From Acutalibacter muris (GTDB taxonomy: Bacteria > Bacillota > Clostridia > Oscillospirales > Acutalibacteraceae): a stretch of 64,000 bases of DNA. Below the pieces are notes generated by a model that saw only the letters and a program-made list of their open reading frames with translations, ran no database searches and was not told the origin of the DNA. Where the stretch lies: positions 124,001-188,000 of the forward strand of contig NZ_CP021422.1 of assembly GCF_002201475.1 (NCBI RefSeq), written 5' to 3'. The position numbers and the translations under genes are program-made. Positions 44,242-52,234 of the stretch are shown piece by piece. Each line of letters begins with the position of its first letter. Within the stretch, counting starts at the first letter, position 1.

Positions 44242-44382
44242 TTATTTTAACGACTCGTATTTTTTCTTTGTGGCAAGGCCGCCGCGGATATGCCGCTGGG
44301 CCTTGTTGACGGCAAGCACATTCTTCACGTCCCGGTATAGGCCCCGGTCTATATACTTTAGACGCTGGGAGACGTCCTTATG
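44242..44382 (-). CDS. spoIIID: spoIIID, 3' segment (codons 39-84), separated from its 5' part by the element
   Basis: Minus-strand frame from the His39 codon to TAA at 44242-44244. It encodes the C-terminal half of SpoIIID, including KDVSQRLKYIDRGLYRDVKN and the family signature NKAQRHIRGGLATKKKY, which carries the DNA-contacting basic region. It has no start codon of its own. The 5' half lies 7.7 kb away at 52064-52179 in the same orientation. Joining 52179-52064 to 44380-44242 gives 255 bases, 84 residues plus stop, with the helix-turn-helix VSKSTVHKDVSQRL restored. SpoIIID is the mother-cell transcription factor acting after sigma-E. Confidence 0.93.
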   Translation of the reverse strand, partial: HKDVSQRLKYIDRGLYRDVKNVLAVNKAQRHIRGGLATKKKYESLK

Positions 44383-44408
44383 TATGGTTGTCGTTAATCA
44401 GAACGGTT
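44362..44408. repeat. Element junction at the 44-kb end (att half-sites)
   Basis: The six-base TATGTA (44379-44384) is shared in direct orientation with 52062-52067. With TG at 44381-44382 as centre, the element-side arm 44383-44408 begins TATGG and ends AGAACGGTT, mirror-matching the arm at 52038-52063. The outer side is spoIIID sequence. Confidence 0.88.
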
Positions 44409-45913
44409 TCGTCTAAGCCCAAATCCCCTAGAAGCCGTAGGTAAATATCCACGTTGCCGTCCTTGTCCACCTCTATCTTCTGAATGACGCGCTTGAGCTG
44501 GGCGTTGGACATTTGGCGCACGTCGGTGATGTCCTCCATGGTCTTGAAGGTGTTTTGCAGGATGCCCTCCAACTGGTCGCCTTTGGTGATGTTGTAGCCC
44601 ACGATTTTCAGTTCGTTTTCGATGCGCTCGATTTTCTTCTTGGAACCGCCTATCTTCTCGTTCAGTTCCTCCCGGCTGATAAGGTCGTCGGTGTACATAT
44701 CCATGTACTTCTGGCGGGTCTTTTGCAGCCTGGCAAGCTGGGCGGTCAGTTCCTTCTCGTACTCCTGGTTGTCGTCCTTAGCCCGGTAGACTCGCTGGAA
44801 CTCCTTGACAACGTATGGGATGATATTCTTCTTGGATTTCAGCACCTGGGCGAAGTATTCCTGTAAGGTGTCAATCAGCTCGTCCTCGTCCACGGTTGTG
44901 GCGTTGGGGCAGCTATCCGCGCCGCGCCCGGTGTGGCCGGAGCAGACCCAGCGTACATAGGTGTTTTTATAGGTGCGCACCGTCCGGTAGAAGGACCAGC
45001 CGCACTCCTTACACTTGATGAGGGTGGAGAACAGGTGCTTGTTGCTCTGGCGCTCATGGTCGGTGTGAAAGGTTTTGTGGCGGGAATCCAGAATTTCCTG
45101 GGCCTGCTGGAAGGTTTCGGGGGAGATGATTTGCAGCTCGGGCCTGTCTACTACAATCCAGTCATCCTCGGGCTTGTCCGCCCGCTGGCCGGTGAGGAAG
45201 TCGCTGACCTCTTGCTTGCCGTTGATTATCTTGCCGGTGTACAGCTCGTTGGTGATGATGCGGCAGATGGCGTTCTGGCTCCAGGAGCAGTTGCGCTTGG
45301 TGCGCAGGCCGCGCTCGTTGAGAGTGTTGGCGATTTTGGCCGCGCCCGCGCCCTCCTCGGTGTACATATGGAAGATTTGCCGGACGATTTCCGCTTCCGA
45401 CCGGTTGATGGCCAGGTTGAAGTAGTCGCCGATGGTCTTATCGTAGCCATAGACGATGTTGGGGACCCGGCCCTTTTCAGCGTTTATCTTCTTTCCGAAC
45501 TTCACCCGCTTGGAGGTATTGGCACTTTCCTCCTGGGCCAGAGCCCCGAAGATGGTCAGCACAAACTCGCTGTTGCCCATGCTGGTCATGTTGGCGGTGA
45601 GGAACTGGGTTTCAATGCCCAATGCTTTCAGCTTGCGGATGCTTTGCAGTAGGTCGACCGTGTTCCTGGCGAACCGGGAGATATCCTTGACCACCACCAT
45701 GTCGAACAGGTGGTGGTCAGCGTCTGCCATCATGCGAAGAAACTCCTTGCGGTTCTTGATTTTTGTGCCGGAGATGCCCTCGTCGGCGTACAGGCGCACA
45801 AGCATGTCGCCGGTGCGCTTGGTGTATTCGGAGAAAAACTCCTTCTGGGCTTCCAGGCTGTTGAGCTGGTCCTCCTTGTCGGTGGAGACGCGGCAGTAGG
45901 CGGCGATGTTCAT
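44378..45913 (-). CDS. Large serine recombinase, probable spoIIID-element excisionase/integrase
   Basis: A 511-residue serine recombinase: resolvase catalytic domain (1-150) with nucleophile Ser in YCRVSTDKEDQ and arginines in SRFARNTVDLL; recombinase domain (about 160-280); zinc ribbon (CKECGWSFYRT...SCPN) at about 300-350; coiled coil (about 380-440). It matches SpoIVCA/skin-type recombinases in domains and in position at the element end. ATG 45913 follows GTGAGGTG. Its last codons and TAA stop (44378-44380) span the att junction: in the excised circle the frame would continue 14 codons to a stop at 52019-52021. A promoter lies at 45956-45984. Confidence 0.93.
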   Translation of the reverse strand: MNIAAYCRVSTDKEDQLNSLEAQKEFFSEYTKRTGDMLVRLYADEGISGTKIKNRKEFLRMMADADHHLFDMVVVKDISRFARNTVDLLQSIRKLKALGIETQFLTANMTSMGNSEFVLTIFGALAQEESANTSKRVKFGKKINAEKGRVPNIVYGYDKTIGDYFNLAINRSEAEIVRQIFHMYTEEGAGAAKIANTLNERGLRTKRNCSWSQNAICRIITNELYTGKIINGKQEVSDFLTGQRADKPEDDWIVVDRPELQIISPETFQQAQEILDSRHKTFHTDHERQSNKHLFSTLIKCKECGWSFYRTVRTYKNTYVRWVCSGHTGRGADSCPNATTVDEDELIDTLQEYFAQVLKSKKNIIPYVVKEFQRVYRAKDDNQEYEKELTAQLARLQKTRQKYMDMYTDDLISREELNEKIGGSKKKIERIENELKIVGYNITKGDQLEGILQNTFKTMEDITDVRQMSNAQLKRVIQKIEVDKDGNVDIYLRLLGDLGLDETVLINDNHT

Positions 45914-45955
45914 GGGGCACCTCACTAATGAAAAGAAATCATTTTGTTACTACGG

Positions 45956-45984
45956 ATTATATCACGTTCCATTCAAAAAGACAA
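45956..45984 (-). promoter_or_regulatory. Promoter of the large serine recombinase gene
   Basis: Minus-strand TTGTCT (45979-45984), 17-bp spacer, TATAAT (45956-45961). This looks like sigma-A; I see no convincing sigma-E or sigma-K element here, although the -10 region GATATAAT partly resembles sigma-E. Confidence 0.5.
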
Positions 45985-46026
45985 CAAAAAAATTGGCGGA
46001 GCCAGGTTCATTTGGCCCCACCATAT

Positions 46027-46374
46027 TTAGGTATTTGTTTCGATAATGGATTTCAATTCTTTGTGGAGCATGGGGATATCAACTGACACAGTATCCCACA
46101 CGATTTGCATATTGACCCCGGAATAGCCGTGCACGATTCGGTTGCGCATACCGTAGATCTGCTGCCAGGGGATGGTCTTAATCTGCGCTTTTGTCTCGTC
46201 GCTCAGGGATTCCTTTGCAAGCTCACCTATCTGCATCAGGTTGAAAACCGTAGCCTCTAGGCGCATGGTATCGGCGGAGAACTCTTCCAACGTGTGGCAG
46301 CTGGCACAGTATCGCATAATACTTTCGATGTGCTGAAGGATTTTCTTCAGTACAATACCATCCTTATCGCTCAT
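46027..46374 (-). CDS. hepT: HepT-like HEPN toxin (DUF86)
   Basis: A 115-residue all-helical HEPN protein with the ribonuclease signature RNRIVHGY (RX4HXY). In HepT/MntA (type VII) systems the MNT partner inactivates the toxin by adding AMP to the Tyr of this motif. ATG 46374 overlaps the mntA 3' end by 11 bases, so the antitoxin gene is translated first. Inside the element the pair probably discourages loss of the DNA in vegetative cells. Confidence 0.88.
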   Translation of the reverse strand: MSDKDGIVLKKILQHIESIMRYCASCHTLEEFSADTMRLEATVFNLMQIGELAKESLSDETKAQIKTIPWQQIYGMRNRIVHGYSGVNMQIVWDTVSVDIPMLHKELKSIIETNT

Positions 46375-46663
46375 AAATCGGCACCCCCGTCTGTTGTATT
46401 TCCATTTCAATGGGGGAGCCTCTTTCGACCTGCGACACATCGATAAGGTCAACCGGTACACTCAGTGTGGACGAGATGCCTTCCAACAAACCAAAGAAAG
46501 CCAACCCGCGCAGACCGCTGTCCACTAAGATGTCTACGTCGCTTCGGGGGGTGGCTTGTCCCTTAGCGTAGGAACCAAACAGGACGGCCCGCCGAACACC
46601 GAAGCCTGCGAATACCGGGTGGAGGATATTTTCGATTTCGTGGATGGAATATACCTTTTGCAT
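46364..46663 (-). CDS. mntA: MntA-like nucleotidyltransferase antitoxin
   Basis: A 99-residue minimal nucleotidyltransferase with the active-site motif GSYAKGQATPRSDVDIL (GSx10DxD). It is the expected AMP-transferase antitoxin for the HEPN partner with which it overlaps. ATG 46663 follows a GGGGG site. Confidence 0.88.
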   Translation of the reverse strand: MQKVYSIHEIENILHPVFAGFGVRRAVLFGSYAKGQATPRSDVDILVDSGLRGLAFFGLLEGISSTLSVPVDLIDVSQVERGSPIEMEIQQTGVPIYER

Positions 46664-46721
46664 AAGGACGCCCCCTTTCAAGAGTATTGTACCGCATTAA
46701 CGGGAAAATAGCAAGGGGAAA

Positions 46722-46907
46722 TCACATCGCCATGGTGATGATTTCGTCCTCAGTTTCTTCCTCAATCTGAACCTCCTGAGCAGCCTGTTGAACCGCTTGT
46801 TCGACCTTTTGGCGGTTAACCTCCATGAAAACTCTGAGTATGTAGTTGGCCATCTGATTGTCTGGATTAGGATTATGGAAACGGTAGCTTAGCTTTTTCT
46901 TACTCAA
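46722..46907 (-). CDS. Small protein typical of clostridial mobile elements
   Basis: A 61-residue protein (KKLSYRFHNPNPDNQMANYI...FMEVNRQKVEQAVQQAA) of a type I recall next to recombinase genes in clostridial mobile elements; function unknown. TTG 46907 is chosen because AAGGAGG lies 11 bases upstream. The C-terminus is strongly acidic. Confidence 0.6.
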   Translation of the reverse strand: MSKKKLSYRFHNPNPDNQMANYILRVFMEVNRQKVEQAVQQAAQEVQIEEETEDEIITMAM

Positions 46908-47310
46908 ATATCTACTCAGCCTCCTTCGAGTATCGGCTTTCGATGTAAATATATATGAAAAGCGGCCCAGTGATAGCACCGAACCACTTGATTATCTGTT
47001 TGAGCAAATTGAAAACTGCACCTGTTTGTTTTCTGTTATTTCAGCATACTTGTTTCCTCTGTAAAAGTGGGTACGGGCTTCTGCCCGATTCTTTTGTGCG
47101 CAGCCACGCGCTCTGCTTGCCCCAGCGGGAGGCCCTTACGACCCTCCCCGCCGGGAAATCCGGTCCTTTGAACCTTGCCGCAAAACTGGGCCAGAATTGC
47201 CCCAAAACGGCCTTCTCAGGGCCTGGTGGTGACTTACCCGACTGCCGCCGTAAAACGCCGACACGGGCCTGCTGTGACCTCACAGGGGCGCAAGGGGCGA
47301 AAGCAGCGGC
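46908..47310. other. 403-bp stretch without a recognisable gene
   Basis: Within the element. A minus-strand open frame at 47041-47283 lacks a ribosome site and has no protein-like composition. The sequence shifts from AT-rich to GC-rich near 47060, suggesting a deletion joint next to the helicase-like remnant. Confidence 0.4.
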
Positions 47311-47898
47311 TCACGCCGGACGGGCGTTTTCCCTAGAGAATACAGGGGTTTCGGCAGTGCCAGGGACGCAAGGGACGACAAATCCGGCACCGCTTGAAGT
47401 TGCGTCCCTTGCGTCACTTCCGTCACTATTGGGCGAGTCGCTGGCGCCTTGCTTACGCAAATGGTGAATGAGCAGAATGGAGAGCTGCAATTCGTCCGCC
47501 AGCTTTTTCAGTTCACGTACTTCTTCATAGTCGGAGGCGTAGGAGATGTCTTGCCCGCCTGAGCGCACGATTTGGAAAGTATCAATGGCTACCAGCACGG
47601 TGTCGTCGTGCTCCCGGACGAACTCTTGAATCTGTTCGCATAGGCCTTGGCCTAACTTCTCAGCGACCGTAGCAAAAAATACGTTTGGGGGAACCTCATC
47701 TGTAAGCTGGAGCAGTCGGTCTTGCACCCGGCGGAGCGGGTCTTCCAGGCAGAGGTAGAGGGTTGAACCTTGCTTGACGGGCAGGTTCCACACCGGTTCG
47801 CCCTTGGCAACGCGCACGCACCAGTCCAGCACCATCCAGGATTTTCCGTTCTTGGGTGCGCCGTCGACGACGGCCAGCTCCTCGATGGGTTTTGGCAT
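47311..47898 (-). pseudogene. RepA/AAA_25-type ATPase remnant
   Basis: A 195-residue frame holding the core of a RecA-fold helicase/primase accessory ATPase: Walker A DGAPKNGKSW near residue 15, LYLCLEDPLRRVQDRLLQL and Walker B VLVAIDTFQIVR, then ILLIHHLRKQG. The family normally has 60 or more residues before Walker A and a long C-terminal part after HHLRKQG; both are missing, and the tail from about residue 150 is unrelated low-complexity sequence. It is probably a replication gene remnant of the ancestral element. Confidence 0.65.
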
Positions 47899-48060
47899 AC
47901 ACATCAGTCCTTTCGGTAAAATAGAAACGCTCCCAGCTTGAAAAAGTGGGAGCAGTATTCATGTTGCAGACCGGAAAGGATTCTGGTATAATTTTGGCAG
48001 GGGGGTAAACGGTATGCCGCAGGTCAGGTATAAAATCTATAGTTGTCTGCCAGCGCTCTC

Positions 48061-48147
48061 ATGGCCTACGCACAGGAGAAGCCGAAGGGCGGCTATACCT
48101 TTGCGCTGAACGCAAAGGCCGCAGCTGGTCAACAGAAAATAATGTGA
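48061..48147 (+). pseudogene. Short remnant of a conjugative-element type protein
   Basis: ATG 48061 opens a 28-codon frame (MAYAQEKPKGGYTFALNAKA...) that resembles a fragment of a larger mobile-element protein. The rest is absent. The surrounding interval 47905-48291 contains no other gene that I can support. Confidence 0.3.
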
Positions 48148-48291
48148 CTGGATTTGATAAATTCAAAGTGCTTTTGAGAGGTATGCAAAAATAAAATGAA
48201 CCGGCATTATCAATATGCCAGTTCATTTCTGATTTACACCTGCCGGAATCGTTGGAGGCACTGTATTTACAAGCCATTGGCCGCTTTGCTG

Positions 48292-48636
48292 TCAGATGGC
48301 CTCGGCTTTATCCAAAAAGAAGGATACAGAACGGGCGTCCGCCGCGATCCGTCCAGGCACACGGTAGGAGCATCTCAGGTCCCAACCGTGAAGCTCCGCC
48401 AGGATCGTGCACAGTTTATAGCTGGATATTTCCAGCGACCGTTTGCCATCATATACTTCCTGTGGGATCCTGTGCGAGGTGAACCCTCTTTTGTCGTACG
48501 GATGGATCAGCAGGACCTGCCCATCCTCGGAAATGAGAAAGCGGATCCGTCTAGGACTGTCCATAGAGCGGAGCGTTTCCACAAAAATATGGATCCGGTT
48601 CGCTTTCAAATAAAAAGAGATGTACACGCCATTCAT
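48292..48636 (-). CDS. Standalone recombinase-accessory-domain protein C
   Basis: A 114-residue protein. IRFLISEDGQVLLIHPYDKR and ELHGWDLRCSYRVPG line up with the C-terminal domain of the upstream serine recombinase and with its two neighbours. It lacks the N-terminal GFQV/ELFS segment of the others, so it is the most divergent copy. ATG 48636 overlaps the previous stop (ATGA), implying translational coupling. The function is unknown. Confidence 0.65.
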   Translation of the reverse strand: MNGVYISFYLKANRIHIFVETLRSMDSPRRIRFLISEDGQVLLIHPYDKRGFTSHRIPQEVYDGKRSLEISSYKLCTILAELHGWDLRCSYRVPGRIAADARSVSFFLDKAEAI

Positions 48637-49088
48637 TTTGCGGTCTTTTTTTCTTTCGCTTTCCACTGCTCAGGGGCGCTGAAATCAAAGAGGAGCATGA
48701 CCTTATCCTCTACCGTCACAACGTGCCCCACAGCTTTGTAGACACAGCCGGTATCCCAGCCCCATATCGTGTAAATTTGTGAGGAGAACCGAACGGATTC
48801 CATGCGTCTCGGGGCGTACTCCTTTTTATTTTTGCGCCATATGATGCTGTCCTTATCTTTAATGGTTACAGGAACAGCCAAAAGGCTCTTTTTCTGTGGA
48901 TGCACCTCCAGACGGATGCGCTCACAACAGTTCAGCGCGGTCAGCGATATCCGGTTAAAGGTTATCCCCGAACCCCAGATAGTGCAGGACGGTAAAGCGT
49001 AGCTGCTGACATGGGAAAAAAGTTCGCCGCTGACTACTTGAAACCCCTCAATTGAAATCGGCTCTACTTCAGTCTTGAATTGATTCAT
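48633..49088 (-). CDS. Standalone recombinase-accessory-domain protein B
   Basis: A 151-residue protein with the full accessory domain: IEGFQVVSGELFSHV, an ITFNRISLTAL segment, IRLEVHPQKKSLL and IWGWDTGCVYKAVGHVV. The same pattern occurs in the recombinase C-terminus at about residues 390-530 and in the neighbour at 49098. TAGGAGGAAA precedes ATG. A DNA-binding or recombinase-partner role is an inference from context. Confidence 0.7.
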   Translation of the reverse strand: MNQFKTEVEPISIEGFQVVSGELFSHVSSYALPSCTIWGSGITFNRISLTALNCCERIRLEVHPQKKSLLAVPVTIKDKDSIIWRKNKKEYAPRRMESVRFSSQIYTIWGWDTGCVYKAVGHVVTVEDKVMLLFDFSAPEQWKAKEKKTAK

Positions 49089-49097
49089 ATTTTCCTC

Positions 49098-49694
49098 CTA
49101 AACGCGGTCGGTGGTAATGTATCCATCTGCAAGGTCGATTTTATAGCTGTCTTCATGCCGTTCTGCCGGAATTCCGAAATACTCCCGCCATTCTCCGGGG
49201 AGGTAGGACTTTCCCTTTTTCCCTCCCACAAACAGCTCAAAGTCGCTGAGCTTGAATAAAAACAGCATCTCCTTTTGATAGGCGGCAGGATTCCCCATAA
49301 TCTTATACCTGTACTCTCTGTCCCAGCCCATCAGGTCGAATATTTTTGCGGCGAATATCCTGCAAAGCATATCCCGGTTCATAAGCTCCTTATCCCCGCC
49401 ACCTTTCGCCCAACGCAGGGCGTCCGGCGTATCCGGCGGGCAGGGCCGGATGATCAACCGCTTTTGCTCCGGGTGTATCAGCAGCTGTATGTGCGTTACC
49501 CCCGGAAAGCGCCGGAGACAGGACATATTGAAGCGGATGCGGGCCGGCCAGATGGTGAGCGCCGGTTCTCGTGTATGGGAGAACAGTTCCGCTTTCGTGA
49601 CCTGGAACCCCTCAAGATTCGGCACGATCTCTTTTTCTTCCTCGTCAGGCATTGTTTGGCAGAATATCTGGTCCAGCTTATCCTGTGCCGGCAT
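49098..49694 (-). CDS. Standalone recombinase-accessory-domain protein A
   Basis: A 198-residue protein with LEGFQVTKAELFSHTREPAL, IRFNMSCLRRF, THIQLLIHPEQKRLIIRPC and LMGWDREYRYKIMG, closely matching the domain in the recombinase gene that precedes it (16-base overlap). A C-terminal extension has LPGEWREYFGIPAE, which resembles the EYSFGDEF region of the recombinase tail. ATG 49694 is used; TTG at 49700 has better ribosome-site spacing and is also possible. Confidence 0.7.
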   Translation of the reverse strand: MPAQDKLDQIFCQTMPDEEEKEIVPNLEGFQVTKAELFSHTREPALTIWPARIRFNMSCLRRFPGVTHIQLLIHPEQKRLIIRPCPPDTPDALRWAKGGGDKELMNRDMLCRIFAAKIFDLMGWDREYRYKIMGNPAAYQKEMLFLFKLSDFELFVGGKKGKSYLPGEWREYFGIPAERHEDSYKIDLADGYITTDRV

Positions 49695-51480
49695 TTCCAA
49701 CACCATCCCCCTTTTTGAGTTTGTCCGCCAGCGCCTGAAGCTCGCAGTCGGTCGGCGTTTTATATTGCTCGATCCCCGGAGCTGGCACACTGGGCCTGTC
49801 CACCTGCCACGCCGCGCTTTGACCCATATAAAATATGTTGTTCTCGCGGATGTGGTCATAGAACTCATCACCAAAGCTGTATTCCCAGGCTTCCGCGTAT
49901 AGCTCGGCGCGCCGCAGGCGGGTGCCTCCCGCCTGCGGCAACGGCACGGCGGACACCGCGTTCTCTAAATTAAAAACAATGATTTGCCTTCGCTCCCGCT
50001 GCACCCATGTCCCCCGGACCTTATATAAGTAATTCGGATCCCACTCCATTATGCGGAAGAGGGCCGTGCCAAAGTGCCGGCAGCGCAGAACTTTTGCGTA
50101 TAGGGACATATCTCCATCAGGACGCCATTTGATGCAGTGCACGGCCCCCTCGTCACAGGGCCGGATGGCGATCTTCCGCTGGGAAGGATGCAGGAGCAGC
50201 TGGATATGGCCCACATCGGCAAACATCCTCACACAGAACAGGTTGAATGTGATCCGGTCTATCCCGAGCGTGACCGCCGGCCCCTCATACCGCGCCTGTG
50301 TAAACTGGCTCCTGACCACCTGATAGCCTTTGAGGTCGAACATGGAAAAGGCGCTTTTTAGCAGGCGTATCTCCCTGCGCGGCGTGCTTACGCTGTTTGA
50401 CAAGTCGTAATACAACCCGGGGTCGTCATTGATCCAATGGTGGTTAATTGGAACGAAACCGCGAAAGATGCCGTCGTCTATCACATGGAGGGAAGGTAGC
50501 CCGCCGCGCATACTGTGCTTCCTGTTTTCAAGGAGGGCCTGCGCCATCTCAAATTTTTCCCTTGGAATGATCGATTCGTGTTGGCCCCTGTAGTGATACT
50601 GATCCATGTCCTGGCGGTTCTTTTTGCGCTTGTGGTTAAACAGGTCGGAGGTAAAGGTCTTCCAGGTCAGGATATCGCCGCAGTAGCGTTCGTTGGAAAG
50701 AATATAGCTTATCGAGCCGCTGTTCCATCCAGTGCTTCCGGTTTTTGTCCTGCATCCAATATCCGTGAGAAAAGCGGCGATGTCCGCCTGGGACCAGCCG
50801 TACAGGTAAGCGTCGAAAATAAAGCGGACCACATTTGCCTCGGCCTCGTTAACGGCCAGCGGGGCATATTTGATGTAGTGGCCGGCAGCGTCCCGCTGTC
50901 TGTCATACCCAAGCAAAGGGGGCGTCAGCAGCTGGCGGTCCTTGAACCGTTGGGACAGGGACCAAATCATGGCTTCCCGCTTTTTGACGGATTCCTCCTG
51001 GGCGAAGGAGGCAAGAAAGGTGAGCATAAATTCGGAACTTTCTTCGATGGTATTCAGATTATCCGTTTCAAAAAATACCCCCACCGGTGGGTCAAGGTTC
51101 TTGAGCCTGCGGACCAGAGAGATACAGTCCACCAGGTTCCTGGCAAAGCGGGAGACGCTTTTTGTTACGATCAGGTCATATTCTCCCCTTTCACAGGCGG
51201 CGATCATGTCGTTAAACGCCGTGCGGTTTTTCAGCGAGACCCCGGAGATCCCCTCATCGGCGTAAATATGCCGCAAACTCCAGTTGGGCCGCTGGTCTGC
51301 CATCTGGCGGTAGTGGGCCTGCTGAAGCTCAAAGGAAGACATCTGCGCGTCGTTGTCGGTAGAAACGCGGCAATACGCGCATACACGGAAAAGCCGGTTC
51401 CTGAGAGTGGCTTTGGGCTTGGCGGGAATAAAGCGTTTCTCCCAGGTATCGTGCTCCGGGGAACAGATGGGTTCAGGCAT
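49678..51480 (-). CDS. Serine recombinase with a non-standard C-terminal accessory domain
   Basis: A 600-residue recombinase: resolvase domain (about 30-180; YCRVSTDNDAQ, VTKSVSRFARNLVD), recombinase domain (about 195-310), then, instead of a zinc ribbon and coiled coil, a linker with FVPINHHWINDDPGLYYDL and a domain at about 390-530 (LKGYQVVRSQF, IQLLLHPSQRKIAIRPC, IMEWDPNYLYKVRG) shared with the three genes downstream. The active-site Ser and Arg residues look intact. GGAGGGG precedes ATG. It overlaps the XRE gene upstream by eight bases. Confidence 0.88.
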   Translation of the reverse strand: MPEPICSPEHDTWEKRFIPAKPKATLRNRLFRVCAYCRVSTDNDAQMSSFELQQAHYRQMADQRPNWSLRHIYADEGISGVSLKNRTAFNDMIAACERGEYDLIVTKSVSRFARNLVDCISLVRRLKNLDPPVGVFFETDNLNTIEESSEFMLTFLASFAQEESVKKREAMIWSLSQRFKDRQLLTPPLLGYDRQRDAAGHYIKYAPLAVNEAEANVVRFIFDAYLYGWSQADIAAFLTDIGCRTKTGSTGWNSGSISYILSNERYCGDILTWKTFTSDLFNHKRKKNRQDMDQYHYRGQHESIIPREKFEMAQALLENRKHSMRGGLPSLHVIDDGIFRGFVPINHHWINDDPGLYYDLSNSVSTPRREIRLLKSAFSMFDLKGYQVVRSQFTQARYEGPAVTLGIDRITFNLFCVRMFADVGHIQLLLHPSQRKIAIRPCDEGAVHCIKWRPDGDMSLYAKVLRCRHFGTALFRIMEWDPNYLYKVRGTWVQRERRQIIVFNLENAVSAVPLPQAGGTRLRRAELYAEAWEYSFGDEFYDHIRENNIFYMGQSAAWQVDRPSVPAPGIEQYKTPTDCELQALADKLKKGDGVGNAGTG

Positions 51481-51802
51481 CGGGTATCCCCTCCTGTAGC
51501 TGTCGAAGCTGTAGGTTCTTTTCCGACAGTGCGAAAGCGAGCTTATAGACCAGGGCTTTTTCCTCTCCGTTCAACGCAAGGAAATCAAACCCGAGGGAAT
51601 CCGTACGTCCCAAAAGATAGTCTGTGCTTACGCCAAACACATCTGCAATCCGCGAAAGCGTGTCCAACGAGGGCTGCCGGATGTTACTTTCGTAGGACGA
51701 GATGGTACTCCTGTCTACACCGATTAGGCTAGCCAGCTGGTTTTGGGCTAAATTTTTGGACTGCCACAGGTATCTGAATCGTTCTGGAAAATCAAAGATC
51801 AT
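51473..51802 (-). CDS. XRE-family regulator of the element
   Basis: A 109-residue protein with an N-terminal helix-turn-helix (NLAQNQLASLIGVDRSTISS, about 18-37) and a helical C-terminal part. It is the first gene of the second recombinase operon and probably represses it. An extended -10 (TGG TATAAT, minus strand near 51835) precedes it, with an inverted repeat GTTACA/TGTAAC at 51849-51884 as candidate operator. Confidence 0.85.
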   Translation of the reverse strand: MIFDFPERFRYLWQSKNLAQNQLASLIGVDRSTISSYESNIRQPSLDTLSRIADVFGVSTDYLLGRTDSLGFDFLALNGEEKALVYKLAFALSEKNLQLRQLQEGIPDA

Positions 51803-51848
51803 TGCCTACACCACCTTGCTGATTATAAAGAATTATACCAGTAAACCT

Positions 51849-51884
51849 GTTACAGTGGGTAGCATCTGTGCGACAGTTTGTAAC
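51849..51884. repeat. Inverted repeat upstream of the element XRE gene, candidate operator
   Basis: GTTACA (51849-51854) and TGTAAC (51879-51884) with 24 bases between, just upstream of the predicted promoter of the XRE gene. Confidence 0.35.
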
Positions 51885-51979
51885 GTTTGGGCTTTTGGGG
51901 CTGCTTTTTTGCTGCTATTTGGTTTTGCGGCAAACCAGTCAAGAAATCAGAAAAGTAAAATCCCTGAATAGAAAAAAGC

Positions 51980-52009
51980 CAGTGTACACTCTTGCATCTG
52001 TGTACACTG
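51980..52009. repeat. Perfect 10-bp inverted repeat inside the element end
   Basis: CAGTGTACAC (51980-51989) and GTGTACACTG (52000-52009) with a ten-base spacer, 55 bases inside the 52-kb junction. It could bind the XRE regulator or a recombination accessory factor, or form a terminator-like stem on the minus strand after the truncated spoIIID frame. Confidence 0.5.
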
Positions 52010-52026
52010 ACCCTTCCACTATTTCA

Positions 52027-52179
52027 CTAGCCATAGCAACCGTTCTGTTTTGTTTCCTCCATATGTACCGTACTCTTGCTGACCCCAAACTGCTTTGCGG
52101 CACAGCGGACGGTGGCCTTGTTTTCCACGATGTACTCCCCGAGCTTGGTGGCGCGGTCGTCGATAACATTGTTTGACAT
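52027..52179 (-). CDS. spoIIID: spoIIID, 5' segment, read through into the element (50-residue truncated form)
   Basis: ATG 52179 with an AAGGTG site opens SpoIIID: DDRATKLGEYIVENKATVR and KQFGVSKSTVH are its dimer/DNA-binding N-terminus. The true codons end at His39 (52065-52063); after the junction the frame reads MEETKQNGCYG and stops at 52027. The truncated product lacks the recognition-helix end and the basic C-terminal helix, so it should be inactive. Excision joins codon 39 to the 3' segment at 44242-44380. Confidence 0.93.
   Translation of the reverse strand: MSNNVIDDRATKLGEYIVENKATVRCAAKQFGVSKSTVHMEETKQNGCYG
52038..52086. repeat. Element junction at the 52-kb end (att half-sites)
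   Basis: TATGTA at 52062-52067 matches the other junction in direct orientation, with centre TG at 52064-52065. The element-side arm 52038-52063 begins AACCGTTCT and ends CCATA; its reverse complement matches the 44383-44408 arm at 18 of 26 positions. Together they would form a 54-bp attP in the circle. Confidence 0.88.
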
Positions 52180-52205: not shown

Positions 52206-52234
52206 TATCTATGCGCTCTGGGGCGGGGATATGC
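52206..52234 (-). promoter_or_regulatory. Sigma-E-like promoter of spoIIID
   Basis: Minus-strand GCATATC (52228-52234) and CATAGATA (52206-52213) with a 14-bp spacer, fitting the mother-cell sigma-E consensus (KMATATT, 13-15, CATACAMT) with a few mismatches, 26 bases upstream of the spoIIID start. A GGCCGG/CCGGCC hairpin lies just beyond it (52264-52285). Confidence 0.55.

Follow-up and report, generated by a model that had tools for sequence, protein, structure and literature searches.

The window analysed here, a 64,000-nucleotide stretch of Acutalibacter muris DNA (contig NZ_CP021422.1, positions 124,001 to 188,000), contains the sporulation gene spoIIID in two parts. The gene is broken after codon 39 by a 7,683-bp element flanked by two copies of the core sequence TACATA (minus strand; TATGTA on the plus strand). 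As is characteristic of gene-intervening elements, deletion of one core-to-core unit restores the spoIIID reading frame, and the element encodes its own recombinase adjoining an attachment (att) site. It is likely that in the mother cell the element is excised by this integrase together with a directionality factor made under sigma-E control, and that spoIIID is thereby rejoined in frame.

The 5' half of the gene encodes residues 1-39, the last of which are KSTVH, and the 3' half encodes residues 40-84 (Table 1). The joined protein matched the Pfam SpoIIID model with 125.1 bits (cut-off 27) and the NCBIfam model TIGR02844 with 107.4 bits, slightly below the cut-off of that model (111.5). When the one-contig, 3.80-Mb genome was searched with the joined protein, the only two matches were the halves themselves; no second spoIIID was found. 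Among genomes of the same genus, G125 and G438 also carry a split gene, and in G468 spoIIID is intact, and 83 of the 84 residues of its product are those predicted for the joined protein.

The same arrangement recurred in other genomes. SpoIIID matches were obtained in 129 of 150 genomes of the family, and in nine of these 129 (A. muris included in both counts) the two halves lay on one contig and were separated at the same codon. The nine two-ended elements ranged from 3,037 to 27,617 bp. In G046 the halves were on two contigs, and four more family genomes yielded a single half, located close to the end of a contig. All halves that were read as DNA (13 five-prime and 11 three-prime) were broken after KSTVH at the same codon. 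Since the codon boundary was the same in eight further family genomes with both halves on one contig, chance can be excluded; an assembly artefact was rejected as the cause because the split recurs across genomes. An order-wide search covered 394 genomes, 336 of them with a SpoIIID match. Among the matches listed, 21 genomes were chosen (G438, G468 and 19 whose best scores were weak), and 12 of these, belonging by label to six families, had both halves on one contig as found by protein match. The rest of the 21 included two genomes with the halves on two contigs (G345, G234), five with one half only, and G468 with its intact gene. Two adjoining spoIIID pieces in G340 are more likely due to a frameshift. 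Sequence sets used here and below overlap (L125 and G123 are identical DNA). Two genomes (G100, G120) had, besides an intact spoIIID, a further match resembling the N-half on a different contig, which could stem from a mixed population, contamination or a paralogue.

These results agree with a preliminary description of the window, made from its sequence, which had claimed an interruption of this length by a mobile element and an exact in-frame join. A second intact spoIIID, or an intact relative differing from the join, had been named there as findings that would contradict it; the genome holds the two halves alone, and the G468 gene agrees with the join. The positions of the halves also stood, except that each junction had to be shifted by one base (from 52064 to 52063 and from 44380 to 44379).

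The recombinase beside the 3' half is a large serine integrase with Resolvase catalytic (PF00239), Recombinase (PF07508) and zinc ribbon (PF13408) domains, all over the Pfam cut-offs. One family of such integrases, 47-94% identical to that of the window, was present in all nine two-ended elements, beside the spoIIID 3' half and in the same direction. A scan of named genomes confirmed 237 integrase relatives. In 75 of the best 80 of these 237 loci a SpoIIID 3' half was located not more than 163 bp past the end of the integrase match, and at 16 of the 80 loci the examined stretch also included the 5' half. The five exceptions either end at a contig edge (L133, L166) or lack a 3' half within the 5 to 10 kb examined (L113, L123, L128). 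Among the names in the titles of these 75 are Blautia massiliensis, Blautia schinkii, Blautia glucerasea, [Ruminococcus] torques ATCC 27756, Extibacter muris, Schaedlerella arabinosiphila, Agathobaculum butyriciproducens and Angelakisella massiliensis; two or three bins with Bacteroidota labels probably result from misbinning or mislabelling. When the 75 integrases are arranged in a tree, the 40 Lachnospiraceae rows need six label changes and the 15 Oscillospiraceae rows three, suggesting that the family is sorted largely, not wholly, by host family. Judged from its genomic positions, this integrase family is devoted to spoIIID. MT838016, from human faeces, was rejected as a free phage: it carries a spoIIID 3' half and is therefore a piece of an integrated element. 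Some integrase relatives (P0088-P0111, L113) read into other frames, several with PF04015, as if they had inserted into other genes and become fused to these.

The end of the integrase gene coincides with the junction. In the window its stop codon, TAA, is a hybrid: the T is the final base of the element, and the AA comes from spoIIID codon 40. The same hybrid stop was found in 65 of the 75 loci; eight read on into host DNA, and two stop before the core. When the sequence is read as in an excised circle, the integrase frame continues as a short tail, for example YGSNKIERFVWAVQ followed by a stop codon in L158. Among 32 sequences analysed (29 element starts and three phage loci) the tail frame closed within codons 15-21 in 25, of which 20 closed exactly at codon 15; the other two frames did so in three and none. 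Fifteen distinct 14-residue tails varied most at third codon positions and used all three stop codons, as expected of coding sequence. The attP assembled from combined element ends (85 and 29 ends) is nearly symmetric, with the consensus AACCGTTCTAAnTnnTnACnACCATACAT joined to AnGGnnGTAACAAAATAGAACGGTT; by sequence comparison, core and arms are consistent with attP/attB recombination at the short core.

In four IMG/VR contigs (integrase identity 71-72%) the tail was uncut, and no SpoIIID half was present in the 21.5 kb examined of them; over that length two of these contigs, L191 and L192, have the same sequence. Comparison of ten proteins from two of the contigs with PHROGs identified a DNA polymerase, a tail-fibre protein and an endolysin in L190, and NrdD and an endolysin in L191. 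An uncut-type tail was also recognized by eye in three of the 120 database relatives listed (P0006, P0043, P0062); these could represent phages in the free state or excised circles. Thus, in most elements with a readable 5' end the predicted attP lies within the integrase gene, so that integration removes a short tail, which the excised circle would restore. Because the tail is lost and regained with the breaking and joining of spoIIID, each recombination would switch two genes at once. A structure model of the tailed integrase (mean predicted local distance difference test score, pLDDT, 58; tail under 50) was too poor for use. Mycobacteriophage BPs provides a precedent: its attP is inside a phage gene whose product acquires a shorter C-terminus upon integration (PMC4557955). 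Closing tail, hybrid stop and uncut phage contigs indicate the same type of arrangement here, but the product shortened in BPs is the repressor, whereas here it is the integrase, host codon 40 completing the stop codon.

A second component shared by the elements is a protein of about 60 amino acids with the consensus KLNYRFHNPN (alignment A1). Same-strand matches were obtained in 80 of 99 sequences, and in a search without strand filter the best match was on the integrase strand in each of 77 sequences. The protein is present in the phage contigs as well. It matched no family over cut-off and had no convincing solved relative (best E 0.21); a structure model predicted two helices (mean pLDDT 80). 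Upstream regions were cut for 68 of the 80, and 47 were distinct and long enough for scoring. A sigma-E-like site scoring at least 11/15 preceded the small protein in 26 of the 47 (0.03 expected per sequence) and spoIIID in 17 of 26 (0.06 expected), and the integrase in two of 67 (0.04 expected); the expected values were obtained by resampling each sequence with a first-order model, and the regions scored come from related sequences. With a score of at least 9 and a spacing of 13-15 nt, a CATA site was found in 44 of the 47 factor upstream regions and was lacking in three. From its co-occurrence with the integrase, its size, its promoter and a precedent in Clostridioides difficile, the small protein is a probable recombination directionality factor.

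The SpoIIID box of Bacillus subtilis is GGACAAG. Of 40 distinct regions, 24 had the sequence GGACAA within 20 nt after CATA (0.03 expected, by resampling of the same kind); the offset was 8-9 nt in 21 of the 24. That SpoIIID would repress the factor is a guess, since the C. difficile box, given as KRTAACARK in PMC5025042, fits GGACAA poorly.

Sequence comparison also pointed to constraint on the split gene. The parts read of 86 three-prime halves (85 distinct) and 29 five-prime halves contained no in-frame stop codons. Between A. muris (G000) and G125, the 5' half differed by 12 synonymous and no non-synonymous changes and the 3' half by 10.5 and 1.5; between G007 and G141 the corresponding numbers were 5 and 0, and 9 and 0. 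The split halves thus appear conserved, perhaps somewhat less than intact genes.

The SpoIIID of B. subtilis is activated by sigma-E and contributes in turn to the activation of sigma-K (PMC517825). For the element the following sequence of events is proposed. In growing cells the integrase, which in the window has a sigma-A-like promoter by eye, would be present yet idle without its partner protein. After asymmetric division, sigma-E would transcribe the spoIIID 5' half and the directionality factor; factor and integrase would then recombine attL with attR, the direction being switched from integration to excision. The mother cell would gain a whole spoIIID, and the spore would retain the element. 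The new SpoIIID might close the loop through the box at the start of the factor gene, which is a guess, and would drive the next step, including a separate sigK rearrangement. Of these elements of the scheme we infer the identity of the factor, the sigma-E timing, the constant supply of integrase, retention in the forespore and the role of SpoIIID in the next step, the sigK rearrangement included. The suggestion in the preliminary description that excision is a developmental switch receives indirect support from the sigma-E-like promoter that most related elements have before the candidate factor, and from the stop-free, conserved 3' halves.

Several observations weigh against this scheme. Excision of the spoIIID element is predicted from sequence. 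The promoter of the window's own factor scores only 9/15 and, by eye, has no GGACAA box. The standard for scoring was the sigma-E consensus. A CATA site also precedes the small protein in the phage contigs, so this promoter may also have a role outside sporulation. The small protein had no match in 19 of the 99 sequences, some of which are contigs cut near the element. Seven of the 32 ends (L152, G007, G012, G035, G114, G141, G143) lack a tail of the expected length; the six besides L152 belong to divergent elements. The halves were recovered by similarity, which favours open ones, and badly decayed halves could be missed. Finally, the ratio of non-synonymous to synonymous substitution rates (dN/dS), calculated for greedily chosen pairs of mixed divergence, was 0.19 (5' half, 11 pairs) and 0.27 (3' half, 26 pairs) in split genes as opposed to 0.12 and 0.14 (12 pairs each) in intact ones, so constraint on the split gene may be relaxed. 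Given the weak factor promoter in the window, the excision reading is held to be likely and not certain, and a broader proposal is put forward tentatively, with more doubt than belief: that in gut Eubacteriales at large a phage-derived family has turned spoIIID into the gate through which mother-cell development must pass, that SpoIIID shuts the factor off through a box at the transcription start of the latter and in some genomes, that of A. muris among them, licenses sigK excision in a two-step chain of rearrangements, and that the integrase C-terminus senses whether the element is integrated or free.

An unlikely alternative is that the element, as a temperate phage or the remnant of one, uses spoIIID merely as attachment site, with ordinary induction and no developmental control, its carriers being non-sporulating until it is lost. 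The occurrence of the integrase family in tailed-phage contigs, with the tail uncut and with the small protein and its CATA site, would fit this explanation, as would the vegetative appearance (by eye) of the window integrase promoter. It is, however, at odds with the sigma-E-like site that, unlike in the case of the integrase, precedes the small protein in most elements at a constant 14-nt spacing. Moreover, elements as short as 3.0 kb still have the integrase, the small protein, the att arms and one other evident gene, and the 3' halves remain open. That spoIIID is dead in the carriers, the disruption being lasting and sporulation given up, is still less probable. Loss of spoIIID does happen in the family, since 21 of the 150 genomes had no SpoIIID match, and the somewhat higher dN/dS of split genes points the same way; but the stop-free halves, the mostly synonymous changes between G000 and G125, the conserved att arms and cores, and spoIVA, which is whole in the A. 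muris genome, argue against it. The idea that the halves act as separate peptides and need no rejoining is scarcely credible: although the reading frame of the 5' half stays open into the element and stops soon after the junction (53 amino acids from GTG), the break is inside the conserved KSTVHKDV stretch, codon 40 offers no start codon and the halves are 3 to 28 kb apart.

Among known systems, the skin elements of C. difficile and B. subtilis resemble the proposed scheme in that a mother-cell regulator gene is interrupted in frame by an element with a serine recombinase, which is helped by a small directionality factor under sigma-E control (PMC5025042, PMC6957869). In C. difficile the recombinase CD1231 is not mother-cell specific, and excision is set by the sigma-E-controlled CD1234, which depends on SpoIIID (PMC5025042); the promoter of the B. 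subtilis skin directionality factor is labelled sigma-E plus SpoIIID (PMC6957869). In contrast to skin, the target here is spoIIID, one step earlier, and the factor could not need SpoIIID, because SpoIIID does not yet exist before excision. The label skin-like in the preliminary description therefore holds for the working principle and not for the target or the integrase. SPbeta, inserted in spsM, has a phage integrase, sprA, and a small factor, sprB, under a mother-cell promoter, in the order attL-rdf-int-attR (PMC4191935, PMC6957869), but spsM is a spore polysaccharide synthesis gene, not a regulator; the SPbeta integrase in the PDB is a distant relative of the window family (54 bits). Mobile elements in sporulation genes also include gin (gerE, Bacillus cereus), vfbin (spoVFB), vrin (spoVR) and yin (yabG), whose targets differ from spoIIID; gin splits a small transcription-factor gene and has several serine recombinases without phage genes. 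The interrupted sporulation genes named in these sources are sigK, spsM, spoVFB, spoVR, gerE and yabG. As had been surmised, spoIIID was not found as an insertion target in the literature searched, which covered few subscription papers. A Clostridium pasteurianum phage encodes its own SpoIIID, a separate matter, and strain differences in spoIIID, of unspecified nature, are mentioned for Anaerostipes hadrus. The kind of element is thus already known; the spoIIID target, the dedicated family, its breadth and an attP inside the integrase gene are new as far as the literature was searched.

A. muris has its sigK gene in two parts as well, which lie about 13.2 kb from each other and share AAATG (G000:C1:3239090-3252961, locus L199), and a 576-amino-acid serine recombinase lies between them, beside the 3' part. 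The element in the window is not a sigK skin element: it sits in spoIIID, and sigK is split by a different element. A sigK split near the same residue was found in at least 7 of 22 genomes (G000, G125, G141, G216, G227, G468, G488). With sigK split in A. muris itself, a second rearrangement downstream is likely. The 3.8-Mb genome has 42 resolvase-domain matches, several paired a few kb apart.

Other genes of the window element are included in Table 1. The second, 600-amino-acid serine recombinase was not favoured as excision enzyme: among the sequences compared it was full length only in the A. muris and G125 elements, as against the 515-amino-acid family in all nine two-ended elements. Its extra C-terminal region recurs in small separate downstream frames, as if repeated and split off (48292-51480). 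The toxin-antitoxin pair scored over the Pfam cut-offs for HepT-like and Polbeta/NTP_transf_2 and under the NCBIfam cut-offs for HepT and MntA; in PADLOC the MntA-like protein gave further matches, to the candidate PDC-S09 models. Four of five scanned proteins of the G143 element (L071/L072) belong to glycosyltransferase, Wzy, epimerase/Polysacc_synt and DegT families. Polysaccharide genes are carried by long elements of G143 and, by eye, of G012 and G035; upon excision the mother cell would lose such genes.

Table 1. Features of the spoIIID element and its junctions, in window positions
Feature	Position	Strand	Remarks
Sigma-E-like promoter of spoIIID: GCATATC, 14 nt, CATAGATA	52206..52234	-	11/15 against the sigma-E consensus
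spoIIID 5' half, codons 1-39	52063..52179	-	
Core TACATA, 5' junction (attL)	52062..52067	-	
Element arm GAACGGTT of attL	52038..52045	-	conserved in related elements
Detached integrase 3' end; joined circle would encode tail YGGNKTERLLWLVK and TAG stop	52019..52062	-	
109-amino-acid helix-turn-helix protein	51473..51802	-	HTH_3; RstR-type-repressor-like, below the cut-off of that model
600-amino-acid second serine recombinase	49678..51480	-	
Weak sigma-E-like site before candidate factor: TGCTATC, 14 nt, CATATATA	46950..46978	-	9/15
61-amino-acid candidate recombination directionality factor, TTG start	46722..46907	-	homologues in alignment A1; putative function
MntA-HepT-like toxin-antitoxin pair (cargo), two overlapping frames	46027..46681	-	
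Sigma-A-like promoter before integrase: TTGTCT, 17 nt, TATAAT	45956..45984	-	by eye
Large serine integrase, 511 amino acids from ATG	44378..45913	-	515 amino acids from upstream GTG at 45925
Element arm AACCGTTC of attR	44401..44408	-	conserved in related elements
Core TACATA, 3' junction (attR)	44379..44384	-	
spoIIID 3' half, codons 40-84 and stop	44242..44379	-	

The new att pair and the probable directionality factor may be of use for genetic tools, and an integrase whose end is cut by integration provides a natural test of direction sensing by serine integrases. If the proposed excision is true, annotation that calls spoIIID missing or split would misjudge which bacteria can form spores, and the sporulation of many gut commensals would depend on the recombinase of a mobile element.

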